64,000 nt of DNA, from positions 6,360,501 through 6,424,500 of the forward strand of contig NZ_JADBEG010000001.1 of NCBI RefSeq assembly GCF_014873755.1, read 5' to 3'. The notes beneath the pieces were generated by a model. It searched no databases and was not told the origin of the DNA. It worked only from the letters and a program-made list of their open reading frames with translations. This DNA comes from Amycolatopsis lexingtonensis. Lineage in GTDB: Bacteria > Actinomycetota > Actinomycetes > Mycobacteriales > Pseudonocardiaceae. The position numbers were made by a program, and so were the translations under genes. Below are positions 43,457-46,121 of this stretch, piece by piece (positions within the stretch are counted from its first letter, which is position 1; each line of letters begins with the position of its first letter).

Positions 43457-44080
43457 TCAGCTCTTTCTCTTCCGGATCTGCCCGGCCAGCCAGGCGTGCC
43501 GGCCGGCCACGGTGAGGCCGTCGCGCACCACGTCGCTCAACACCGGCTCGTCGCGGCCGCGAGCCGCGACCTCGGCCACGGTGAATTCGAGGATCCGGGC
43601 GTCGTTGCCCGTCCACCGGGAAACATCGGCAGCCAGACCGTCGACCTGAAGGCCCCAACGATCTTCGTCGGCGTCGTCCGGCCGGACCAGCAGGAGATCG
43701 ATATCGCTCTCGGCGGTCATCGAACCGCGTGCGGCCGAGCCGAACACCGCCGCGTAGCGCGGCCGCGGTTTCCAGGCCGTCAAAGTGGTTTCGATCCGGT
43801 CGAGCAGCTTCGCACGCAGACCCGCCAGCCCGGCGATGTGCTCCGCGGCGAGGTGGTCCCGGTTGAACCGGTAGGCGAAAGCGTTGCCCACCCGGTCGGC
43901 GTGCACGACACCCTGGCGCACCAGCCGCTGCAGGACTTTCCGGATTCCTTCTTCGGAATGCCTGCCGAGCACCCGGTGCAGCTGACCGGTTGTGAACGTC
44001 CCGTCGAAGCCCGCCAGAACAGCGAGCACGTCGCCGTCCAGCGTCGGGGTCACCGTGGCCAGCGGCCGGTTCAACTCCAT
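43457..44080 (-). CDS. MNT-type nucleotidyltransferase with N-terminal winged helix (antitoxin of an MNT-HEPN pair)
   Basis: A 207-residue protein: winged-helix DNA-binding part (about 15-75) and a minimal nucleotidyltransferase domain with GSAARG (114-119) and SDIDLLLV (Asp126, Asp128). In MNT-HEPN systems this enzyme adds AMP residues to the HEPN ribonuclease and neutralises it; the DNA-binding part would allow autoregulation. Its partner gene downstream looks broken. Two copies of TAGTACGCATAC upstream (44097-44128) are the likely operator. Confidence 0.8.
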   Translation of the reverse strand: MELNRPLATVTPTLDGDVLAVLAGFDGTFTTGQLHRVLGRHSEEGIRKVLQRLVRQGVVHADRVGNAFAYRFNRDHLAAEHIAGLAGLRAKLLDRIETTLTAWKPRPRYAAVFGSAARGSMTAESDIDLLLVRPDDADEDRWGLQVDGLAADVSRWTGNDARILEFTVAEVAARGRDEPVLSDVVRDGLTVAGRHAWLAGQIRKRKS

Positions 44081-44096
44081 CGCCGCACCTGTACTT

Positions 44097-44128
44097 TAGT
44101 ACGCATACACCAACTATAGTACGCATAC
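44097..44128. promoter_or_regulatory. Direct-repeat operator of the MNT-HEPN operon
   Basis: TAGTACGCATAC occurs at 44097-44108 and 44117-44128, exactly 20 bp apart (two helical turns). The core AGTA-cgca-TACT is itself a dyad, complete in the second copy. It covers -10-like sequence for the minus-strand MNT gene, fitting autoregulation by its winged helix. Confidence 0.65.
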
Positions 44129-44177
44129 TGAAGCCGGTAAAATCGGTTTCCGCTTCTCGTTCCCCTTGCTAACGTCT

Positions 44178-44270
44178 TCTTCGCCCGGTGCGGCGGTGAG
44201 GGTTACTTCTCTGGTATCCCTTGGGTTCGACTCCCGAAAGCCTTCACCACTTCGATCTCGGGCGACCAAC
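44178..44270 (+). ncRNA. Y RNA-like element 1 (short, without acceptor/D-arm)
   Basis: This segment shares with the YrlA-like element downstream the blocks GAGGGTTACTTC (44199-44210) and CCTTCACC-ACTTCGATCTCGGGC (44241-44263), in the same order. Outer bases TCGCCC (44181-44186) can pair with GGGCGA (44260-44265). Between the blocks is a T-arm-like hairpin (GGG-TTCGACT-CCC, 44223-44235), but no acceptor stem or D-arm. It looks like a reduced tandem copy of a Y RNA. A small hairpin CGCAC-tcccg-GTGCG (44270-44284) follows and could end it. Boundaries are estimates. Confidence 0.55.
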
Positions 44271-44291
44271 GCACTCCCGGTGCGAGCAAGA

Positions 44292-44475
44292 CCTCGGGAG
44301 TCACGGCTTCACCGATGCCCGGTGCGCAGGCGAGGGTTACTTCCACTTCTAATGGGCAGGTCGGGGGTTCGAATCCCTCCCGGACCACGTGGTCCGGTAG
44401 CTCAGGTGGCAGAGCAGCAACGTACCTTCACCGACTTCGATCTCGGGCATCGCTGAAGCCGTGACTCCCCCACCA
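44292..44475 (+). ncRNA. yrlA: YrlA-type Y RNA with circularly permuted tRNA-like module, upstream of rsr
   Basis: The ends pair in a 25-bp stem with one mismatch (44296-44320 with 44445-44469), the expected Ro60-binding stem of a Y RNA. Inside is a tRNA mimic in permuted order: T-arm GGGGG-TTCGAAT-CCCTC (44363-44379), acceptor 3' strand CCGGACC (44380-44386), tetraloop ACGT, acceptor 5' strand GGTCCGG (44391-44397), TA, and D-arm GCTC-aggtggca-GAGC (44400-44415). This is the arrangement known for bacterial YrlA RNAs, which tether Ro60 to partners. The gene directly downstream encodes the Ro60 orthologue. Exact ends and promoter are not determined. Confidence 0.85.
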
Positions 44476-44491
44476 AAAATCAGGGGGAGAA

Positions 44492-46075
44492 ATGAGCAAG
44501 TTCAACACCGCACGCGCGCCCGCCGCGACCTCTCCGGTCCGTGGTGAGGCCACGCCGTCCGGGGTCACCTACGAGGGTGGCGCCGGTTACGCGCGCGACG
44601 CCCGGTCCGAGCTCTTCCTGCTCGCCGTCACCAACATGGTCGGTGAGCACACCTTCTACGAGTCCGCGGGCGCGCGCGACACCCGGTACGCCGAGCTGGT
44701 CCGGAAGTCGACCCTCGAGGATCCACAGTGGACCGCGCGGTTCCTGCGCTGGCTGCGCTCCGAGGCGAACCTGCGCACCGCGTCGCTCGTCGGCGCGGCC
44801 GAGTTCGCCAAGGCGCGCCTCGACGCCGGGCTCGACGGGCTCGGGCGGCAGGCCGTCGCCGACGTGCTGCAGCGGGCCGACGAGCCCGGGGAGCTGCTCG
44901 CCTACTGGACTTCCGTGCACGGCAAGAACATCCCGAAGCCGGTCAAGCGCGGCGTGGCCGACGCGGCGCGGAAGCTCTACGACGAGCGCTCGTACGCCAA
45001 GTGGGACTCGGCGGCGCGGGCGTTCCGCTTCGCCGACGTCCTCGAGCTGACGCACCCGGCCAACCGCGACGCGACCCAGGGCGCGCTGTTCAAACACGTC
45101 CTCGACGAGCGCCACGACCGCGGCAACCCGCTCCCGGCCGAACTGAACGTGCTGCGCGCCCGCGCCGAGCTGACGGCGTGGGACGCGCCGCGCCGGCGCG
45201 AGCTGTTCGCGCGGCCGGACGCGGCGGACGTCCTGCGCGCGGCGGGGATGACGTGGGAGTCGGTCGCCGGCTGGCTGCAGGGTCCCCTGGACGCGCGCGT
45301 TTGGGAGGCGCTGATCCCGTCCATGGGCTACATGACGCTCTTGCGGAACTTGAGGAACTTCGACGAGGCCGGTGTCTCGGACGACGTCGCGCAGCGCGTT
45401 GCCGCGAAGCTCGCCGATCCCGCGCAGGTCGCGAAGTCGCGGCAGCTGCCGATGCGGTTCCTCTCGGCCTACCGGGCGGCGCCGTCGCTGCGCTGGGCGT
45501 GGGCGCTGGAGCAGGCGATCGCGCGCTCGCTGGCGAACGTTCCGCAGCTGCCCGGCCGGACGCTCGTGCTCGTCGACACCTCGACGTCGATGAACATGGG
45601 CTTCAGCCGCGACGGCACCCTGATGCGCTGGGACGCCGCCGCGGTCTTCGGGCTCGCGCTCGGGCGGCGGTGCGCCGAGGCCGACGTCGTGACGTTCTCG
45701 GACCGGCTGCTCGGCGGCACGCGCACGAAGACGTTCAAGCTGCGGCCCGGCGGGTCGCTGCTGAGCGACGTCGAGCGCTGGAAGTCCGGCGGGTTCTTCC
45801 TCGGCGGCGGCACCAACACCGCCGGCGCGGTGCGGAAGCACTTCGCGAAGCACGACCGCGTCGTCATCCTGACCGACGAGCAGGCCGGCTACGGCGACGT
45901 CGGGCAGGCGCTGCCCGCGCGCGTTCCGCTGTACACGTGGAACCTGGCGGGCTACCGGTTCGGCCACGCGCCGTCCGGCGGCCCGCACCGGCACACCTTC
46001 GGCGACCTGACCGACCAGGCCTTCCGGATGATCCCGCTGCTCGAGGCGGGCGAGAACGCCGACTGGCCGTTTTGA
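44492..46075 (+). CDS. rsr: Rsr, bacterial Ro60 orthologue (TROVE + vWA)
   Basis: A 527-residue protein with an alpha-helical repeat (TROVE) ring over about residues 25-350 and a von Willebrand factor A domain after it. The MIDAS metal site is complete: DTSTS (Asp362, Ser364, Ser366), Thr441 in GGGTNT and Asp462 in LTDEQ. Ro60 proteins bind Y RNAs on the outer ring and misfolded RNA ends in the central hole; bacterial forms work with ribonucleases in RNA decay and stress survival. GGGGGAG lies 2 nt before the ATG. Tandem Y RNA-like sequences lie immediately upstream. No rtcA/rtcB gene is nearby. Confidence 0.94.
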   Translation: MSKFNTARAPAATSPVRGEATPSGVTYEGGAGYARDARSELFLLAVTNMVGEHTFYESAGARDTRYAELVRKSTLEDPQWTARFLRWLRSEANLRTASLVGAAEFAKARLDAGLDGLGRQAVADVLQRADEPGELLAYWTSVHGKNIPKPVKRGVADAARKLYDERSYAKWDSAARAFRFADVLELTHPANRDATQGALFKHVLDERHDRGNPLPAELNVLRARAELTAWDAPRRRELFARPDAADVLRAAGMTWESVAGWLQGPLDARVWEALIPSMGYMTLLRNLRNFDEAGVSDDVAQRVAAKLADPAQVAKSRQLPMRFLSAYRAAPSLRWAWALEQAIARSLANVPQLPGRTLVLVDTSTSMNMGFSRDGTLMRWDAAAVFGLALGRRCAEADVVTFSDRLLGGTRTKTFKLRPGGSLLSDVERWKSGGFFLGGGTNTAGAVRKHFAKHDRVVILTDEQAGYGDVGQALPARVPLYTWNLAGYRFGHAPSGGPHRHTFGDLTDQAFRMIPLLEAGENADWPF

Positions 46076-46084
46076 GAGACGCCG

Positions 46085-46121
46085 TGAAGGCCCCCGTGAC
46101 GAGATCATGGGGGCCTTCACG
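46085..46121 (+). terminator. Strong hairpin after rsr
   Basis: Arms GTGAAGGCCCCC (46085-46096) and GGGGGCCTTCAC (46110-46121) are perfect complements. With the GTGA/TCAT continuation inside (one G:U pair) they form a 16-bp stem with loop CGAGA. It begins 10 nt after the rsr stop codon. Confidence 0.8.

Follow-up and report, generated by a model that had tools for sequence, protein, structure and literature searches.

Which RNAs precede the Ro60 gene of the soil actinomycete Amycolatopsis lexingtonensis, and how much of a tRNA do they carry? The question is raised by a stretch of 64,000 nucleotides of contig NZ_JADBEG010000001.1 (the window; positions are counted from its first letter), in which a gene for a Ro60-like protein (rsr) follows two Y RNA elements, one long and one short, on the same strand. 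An earlier note on this DNA had described a TROVE/von Willebrand factor A (vWA) gene behind a Y RNA with a permuted tRNA mimic, a description confirmed here by domain match, structure and compensatory changes; it had missed an anticodon arm, a decayed third element and a single promoter-like box. As judged by comparison with relatives, the long element is predicted to hold all parts of a tRNA in circularly permuted order, the anticodon arm among them. The locus itself is real and for the most part belongs to a known type. With good confidence we read it as a YrlA-type locus of Ro60 (Rsr) and Y RNA, the long element carrying the complete permuted tRNA and the whole probably being expressed as one transcript.

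The long element (class A, 44296..44469, + strand) was delimited by folding against shuffles, a covariance model and the complementarity of its arms. The outer stem is formed by 44296-44321 and 44444-44469, 26 nt each and 96 % complementary, with 25 of 26 pairs made. It encloses a T arm (44363-44379), a closed 7-bp acceptor stem (44380-44397) and a D arm (44400-44415); the earlier claim of a 25-bp end-pairing stem around these three in permuted order holds at 44296-44469. The element folded far better than its shuffled versions (z -5.53, 0 of 200), the outermost part of the long stem being less well kept (55-69 % of cells paired in 68 aligned elements). The 5' strand of the predicted Ro-binding helix (44329..44337, + strand) pairs with 44424-44432, 87.9 % of cells being paired, and a UACUUC motif follows it. 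Our own covariance model R1, which holds the window element among its 68 rows, scored the long element at 151.4 bits over the core 44313-44454. In the R1 search of the genome the short element followed with 41.9 bits and a run of ordinary tandem tRNA genes with 35.1 bits; a further Y RNA copy elsewhere in this genome was not found by the model. The position beside the Rsr gene, the long end stem and the permuted T/acceptor/D domain agree with the YrlA class. A chargeable tRNA gene was considered and rejected: the acceptor strands are closed by a loop, the order is permuted, and ARAGORN called no tRNA in the window.

The prediction of a complete tRNA was drawn from an alignment that combines the window's element with other class-A elements, 68 in all from 65 loci. 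Over this alignment 94.1 % of the cells of the whole structure were paired, and the covariation was 0.442 against 0.128 when shuffled (0 of 500), far above slid versions of the structure. In tRNA numbering the window element reads 29-31 (CCA), the loop CTTCTAA, 39-43 (TGGGC), the variable loop AGGTC, the T arm and 66-72; a four-base cap, 1-7, U8 A9, the D arm, A26 and G27 C28 complete it. The anticodon stem GCCCA/TGGGC is complete, its 5' strand being taken from two separate places: the break falls after nucleotide 28, where the Ro-binding stem leaves as an extra helix. The main part of the anticodon arm, recognised by covariation (44343..44357, + strand), consists of 29-31 (44343-44345), the loop 32-38 (44346-44352) and 39-43 (44353-44357). 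The variable loop 44-48 follows at 44358..44362, with C48 as tertiary partner of G15; the T arm, assigned from the structure-annotated alignment, corresponds to nucleotides 49-65, and the acceptor stem, supported by alignment covariation, to 66-72, the four-base closing loop and 1-7. The stretch 44398..44418 holds U8 A9, the D arm, nucleotide 26 (44416) and nucleotides 27-28 (44417-44418), the pairing partners of 43 and 42; all these parts lie on the + strand.

Nucleotides 27-28 were paired in 96.3 % of cells with a covariation score of 0.973 against 0.243 shuffled, and 29-31 in 79.3 % of cells against 65.1 % shuffled; in the acceptor stem 98.5 % of cells were paired and six of seven pairs had changes on both sides. 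Pairs that use the strand after the D arm were present in 64 of 67 (27-43) and 66 of 68 elements (28-42), with G-C, C-G, A-U and U-A types, and those that use the strand before the loop in 48 of 58 (30-40) and 46 of 54 (31-39), with more than one pair type each. For each of these four pairs, none of 2000 shuffles reached the observed pairing; pair 29-41 was uninformative because C29 does not vary. The tertiary pair 15-48, known as the Levitt pair, was kept in 67 of 68 elements (42 G-C, 25 A-U, one exception), U8 and A14 were invariant, and no pairing signal was found for 26-44 across the aligned elements. A full arm with five stem pairs and a 7-nt loop was present in 42 of 66 usable rows (two of the 68 were left out for gaps), against means of 16 and 17 and a maximum of 26 when one strand was re-dealt. 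When the elements were searched independently of the alignment, 42 of 67 had a [CU]UNNN[AG]A loop on three or more pairs, as did 1 % of shuffles.

Several points weigh against the complete permuted tRNA and the YrlA assignment. The shuffles do not keep the relatedness of the sequences. To allow for kinship, changes that arose independently were counted along a 63-protein Rsr tree, from which L068 and L091 (truncated or broken frame) were left out and in which loci with two long elements count once. On this tree no change ran opposite for 15-48 (7-8 of 8 agree, p 0.008-0.016), 28-42 (5-6 of 6, p 0.03-0.06) and 30-40 (6-7 of 8, p 0.016-0.03). For 27-43, four of five changes agreed and none was opposite (p 0.125, too few pairs for 0.05), and 31-39 was weak, with 3-5 of 7 in agreement and 0-1 opposite (p 0.06-0.6). 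The compensatory changes in relatives that the earlier note had named as a test of the stems are present, in the alignment counts as well as on the tree. The full arm was missing in 24 of the 66 usable rows, among them L023, L025-L027 and L029, which indicates that the anticodon arm is not indispensable everywhere. The minimum-energy fold of the long element alone shows no anticodon hairpin and the centroid leaves the stretch open; energy folding was therefore discarded as support for the arm. ARAGORN called 14 of the 68 elements in native order and 58 of 68 after re-ordering, yet also 525 of 680 with the arm shuffled, and as a non-discriminating result this was not used. Finally, the Rfam YrlA model (RF02553), proposed earlier as a check, did match the tRNA-like part (44356-44418, 39.7 bits, E 2.7e-7 in a search of 571 bases) and recognised only that part, and the score lies under the gathering score of 69; at gathering scores Rfam gave nothing in the window. 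The long element is therefore called YrlA-like and not a member of the Rfam family. None of 296 genomes sampled across the phylum reached the gathering score of RF02553, so this lineage appears to fall outside the curated model.

YrlA of the Rfam family and of Salmonella (PDB 6CU1, as cited in PMC8394870) shares with the window element the long end stem, the Ro-binding helix, the permuted T/acceptor/D order and the place beside rsr. The junction stem (gccu/ggcg) of the Rfam consensus continues straight towards the end stem without an anticodon hairpin, whereas in the window element only nucleotides 27-28 pair with the strand after the D arm, and 29-31 with the 7-nt loop make a closed anticodon arm. 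According to PMC8394870, bacterial YrlA mimics the D, T and acceptor arms and tethers PNPase. In the open-licence literature no paper was found with a title or abstract on an anticodon or a permutation in a Y RNA; the anticodon arm as a novel feature of Y RNAs is unproven.

The protein and its distribution link the element to Ro60. The rsr gene (44492..46075, + strand) encodes a Ro60-like TROVE/vWA protein of 527 amino acids, recognised by its TROVE domain (PF05731, E 4.4e-16), by two PDB chains named TROVE domain-containing protein (E 1.7e-27) and by a DTSTS motif read in the sequence, presumably of the MIDAS type. No separate vWA model was matched, and the NCBIfam Rsr equivalog model gave only 34 of 900 bits. 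The nearest named relatives of this rsr are from Amycolatopsis species, the window's genome measuring 10.7 Mb. Thirty-five of 80 genomes of the genus carry rsr. An R1 match of at least 90 bits was obtained in 34 of these 35, G068 being the exception at 40.8 bits; the 45 genomes lacking rsr gave no such match, their best having 53.7 bits. Of the 34 positive genomes, 29 had supplied rows to the model, which makes the positive half of this co-occurrence partly circular and counts as a further point against, and the weight therefore rests on the negative half and the other five genomes. As a separate observation, three genomes of the genus (G070, G079 and G029) have a broken or partial rsr and keep a strong Y element (93.5, 95.3 and 142.5 bits). 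In Asanoa ishikariensis (L087) the rsr match starts at residue 282 and the preceding reading ends, by eye, like an intein C-terminus.

Neighbouring ordinary tRNA genes yield half molecules in the same order, one such place scoring 35 bits, and four low-scoring R1 places in the window's genome proved to be tandem tRNA genes (L136, L138) or a single tRNA gene each (L139, L140). The long element might accordingly be a tRNA pseudogene or debris of tandem tRNAs beside rsr, and the R1 matches of up to 53.7 bits in genomes without rsr could be cited for it; we read matches below about 55 bits in such genomes as background from tandem tRNAs. At 151 bits the window element stands apart from this background and is tied to rsr (34/35 against 0/45 genomes). 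Compensatory changes maintain its tRNA pairs, where a pseudogene should decay in the rsr-bearing relatives, and the opposite was seen. We consider the pseudogene explanation extremely improbable, and tandem tRNA genes a possible origin of the permuted order in what we take for a maintained, complete tRNA.

What could such an anticodon loop do? All 42 full arms have U33 and A38, 39 of 42 have C32, 39 of 42 a purine at 37, and 22 of 42 read CUNNUAA, the kind of loop that receives t6A37. Positions 34-36 hold 19 triplets among the 42 full arms and six among the 12 full-arm elements of the closest group (L001-L020). The drift of the triplet on a kept loop shape argues against simple decay and against decoding, which is very unlikely and which the closed acceptor end also forbids. 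Some loci carry another D arm of the GTCC/GGAC or GACC/GGTC type together with a 4-nt variable loop, both assigned by eye (L040 at -175, L023 at -327, L025 at -326 and L073 at -536 from the rsr start). The elements of L040 and L023 have the Glu triplets CTC and TTC; ARAGORN called tRNA-Glu(ttc) at L023 1169-1242 and tRNA-Glu(ctc) at 990-1059 of a Xanthomonas phage locus (L126), and nothing in L040. Other D arms with Glu-type anticodons suggest the capture of different tRNAs.

In front of the long element the 320 bases 5' of rsr also hold the short one, both where the earlier note had placed them, and the order before rsr is class B, a decayed class C, class A. These recurring classes are defined by a T arm, acceptor and D arm (A), a T arm with or without an acceptor hairpin (B), or neither (C). 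This classification is approximate: class B received 50 elements, several of which are complete or nearly so with another D arm, e.g., a GTTC/GAAC D arm in L010 at -166. The short element (class B, 44179..44269, + strand; R1 41.9 bits) has the Ro-binding motifs and a T-arm-like hairpin with a 5-bp T-stem (44221..44237, + strand, TTGGG TTCGACT CCCGA, from repeat and stem comparison), without acceptor hairpin and without D arm. Its fold is less clearly above shuffles (z -2.55, 2 of 200). Three blocks are common to both elements: 27 nt with 89 % identity (44183/44317), 15 nt with 100 % (44249/44434) and a 13-nt T-arm block with 92 % (44223/44365). The previously noted short second element that repeats conserved blocks and keeps only a T-arm-like hairpin was thus found at 44179-44269. 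By sequence comparison, the remnant of a third Y element (class C, 44272..44300, + strand) was recognised between the two; it keeps the 5' and 3' ends (CACTCCCGGTGCG...CTCGGGAG) and has lost the middle with GGNTACTTC. Its counterpart is intact in L007, L009, L012, L019 and L020, as the middle element in L007, L009 and L020.

Are the short and the decayed elements merely functionless duplicates beside a long element that alone works? The Ro-binding core of the middle element is lost, the short element lacks both acceptor hairpin and D arm, and its fold is only mildly above chance. Constancy among near relatives with the same short element (L001-L007, L009) argues otherwise: GGGTTACTTC is identical in eight of eight and CTTCGATCTCGG in six of eight, the T-stem of L003 having only three pairs. 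Elements with a T arm only recur in Rhodococcus, Asanoa and Streptosporangium, and in three Amycolatopsis species (L060, L061, L081) the sole called element has a T arm and a short hairpin and no D arm. We hold such a loss of function to be improbable. The proposed duplication followed by loss of the tRNA body is partly supported by a graded series of forms, from complete elements over those with T arm and acceptor hairpin without D arm (e.g., L011, L013, L020) to the T arm only as in the window.

The tandem arrangement, of which the earlier note knew no description in this group, is common. Sixty-one loci came from one scan of species genomes, partly the same genomes as the genus set. Of 91 loci, 80 were kept once identical upstream stretches had been removed, and L039, still a shifted duplicate of L017, was left out, giving 79. 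By a regular-expression scan, 76 of the 79 loci have one Y element or more and about 64 have two or more, a count that takes in 5' motifs without a called 3' end; the scan is rough, misses the L083 and L084 elements found by R1 and splits some others. The abstract of Chen et al. 2014 reportedly names likely Y RNAs near Ro60 in more than 250 species, with at least one per species bearing a tRNA-like domain, and this already implies tandem Y RNAs without such a domain. With the Salmonella genes and the phage arrays described below, the layout of two elements before rsr is not new; the YrlA class and loci with several Y RNAs were already known.

According to PMC7790460, Salmonella rsr-yrlBA-rtcBA has yrlB and yrlA together, and its yrlBA resembles the window in the tandem of a Y RNA lacking the tRNA part with YrlA. 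Unlike in Salmonella, the Y RNAs of the window lie upstream of rsr and the two RtcB homologues of this genome more than 1 Mb away from it. Among mycobacteria, an M. smegmatis Y RNA is cited in PMC4726728 and yrlA is predicted for some species in PMC9569102. On a plasmid of Deinococcus gobiensis a Y element (R1 82.3 bits) lies, as in the window, just upstream of a TROVE gene; it has a TCA/TGA hairpin with C-G at 27-43 and G-C at 28-42, a 6-nt hairpin loop in contrast to the window, and, again different, seven T after the element (L128 1420-1455), as if it had its own terminator. Gordonia phage VanLee and Xanthomonas phage 10KY502B share with the window tandem elements before a Ro-like gene, with loops CTTCTAA and CTTGTAA. 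The Xanthomonas phage (L126 748-1343) has five tandem Y-like elements, of which R1 found three and two were read by eye; forms with a tRNA-like domain alternate with forms that lack one. Its last element has the full arm CGA CTTGTAA TCG, that of VanLee CGC CTTCTAA GCG; the phage elements span L124 1201-1344, L126 1204-1343 and L126 986-1126. The phage records annotate these Y RNAs as tRNAs, tRNA-Arg(tct) at 1204-1275 in VanLee and tRNA-Thr at 1211-1278 in the Xanthomonas phage, which the complete tRNA fold explains.

How the array is expressed can be read in part from its flanks. A -10-like box (TAACGT, 44170..44175, + strand), the predicted single promoter of the Y array and rsr, ends 10 nt before the first Y core motif. 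Across loci, 52 of 69 had such a TANNNT box ahead of their first called element. It was present in 2 of 88 spacers, which are often shorter than the 42 nt allowed and have a somewhat lower chance of a box, and between the last element and the ATG in 0 of 69; 11 of 80 loci were left out for a mis-set start codon, truncation or lack of a usable called element. A sigma-70 consensus promoter was not found on the + strand at the array, the -35 not being consensus, nor a terminator or another + strand promoter at the locus. With the box only before the first element and no terminator or other promoter, the Y RNAs and rsr are probably on one transcript, with some processing. By eye, a linker CAACTTCA recurs between tandem Y elements (e.g., L005, L074, L078, L079, L082) and may be a processing site. 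On the far side of the -10-like box, an operator-like direct repeat ACTTTAGTACGCATAC / ACTATAGTACGCATAC was seen at 44093-44128, 5' of a divergent gene (43457-44080) with a nucleotidyltransferase domain, weakly MntA-like and under the NCBIfam cut-off.

Could the array mainly be a cis-acting leader? Immediately before rsr, CTCCCCC (44465-44471) and GGGGGAG (44483-44489) form a hairpin over the Shine-Dalgarno sequence (44465..44489, + strand, window p 0.023). Its CTCCC (44465-44469) can either take part in the long Y stem or bind the Shine-Dalgarno strand, the two pairings being mutually exclusive, and in the leader explanation folding or Rsr occupancy would set rsr translation by this competition. 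The long Y stem ends 22 nt before the ATG, a -10-like box is absent between the last called element and rsr (0/69), no terminator was found, and the window's hairpin has 7 uninterrupted pairs, those of L074 and L065 14-15 (each with p 0.003). Over 73 loci, however, it recurs in form and is just modestly above shuffles (median p 0.206, 11 at p <=0.05, 5 at <=0.01; seven loci were left out here and three in an earlier test for a mis-set start, truncation or lack of a usable element), and L006 and L084 have none. Moreover, the long stem would normally win and leave the Shine-Dalgarno site free, and a leader role leaves the kept tRNA fold unexplained. Regulation of rsr by a pairing switch is a hypothesis, and a leader as the main role seems rather unlikely next to a Ro60-Y RNA locus with a complete tRNA. 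No paper with a title or abstract on autoregulation of Y RNA and rsr was found in the open-licence literature.

For transcription, processing, Rsr binding and PNPase tethering we infer the following course. The transcript would start at about 44182 and take in, one after the other, the short Y RNA, the decayed element, the long Y RNA and rsr. The Y RNAs would either be excised or stay part of the leader, and in every element the conserved GGNUACUUC / GAUCUCGGG helix would be the binding site of Rsr. In the RYPER complex of Deinococcus, as given in PMC7790460 and PMC8058203, the tRNA-like domain tethers Rsr to PNPase; by analogy, the tRNA-like part may serve as docking site for PNPase, as in RYPER, or for tRNA-modifying enzymes, with the stem held by Rsr. 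If the single transcript is true, the rsr messenger carries the RNA ligands of its own protein, a simple route for feedback.

A complete tRNA with an anticodon arm changes which proteins a Y RNA could engage. One speculative and, in our estimate, unlikely extension is that the Y RNAs of actinomycetes and some phages build a complete tRNA over a strand break, that selection keeps the shape of its loop but not the triplet, and that the Ro60 particle displays this variable anticodon as a lure. It would then be a decoy or gauge for enzymes that act on anticodon loops, either modification enzymes or anticodon nucleases, with Rsr made from the same transcript. What merits the attention of specialists is the anticodon arm that spans a strand break, the drift of its triplet and the transcript that Y RNAs and rsr probably share. 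PMC7790460 proposes the tRNA-like domain as a competitive inhibitor of an anticodon nuclease, and the anticodon arm would make this suggestion directly testable.

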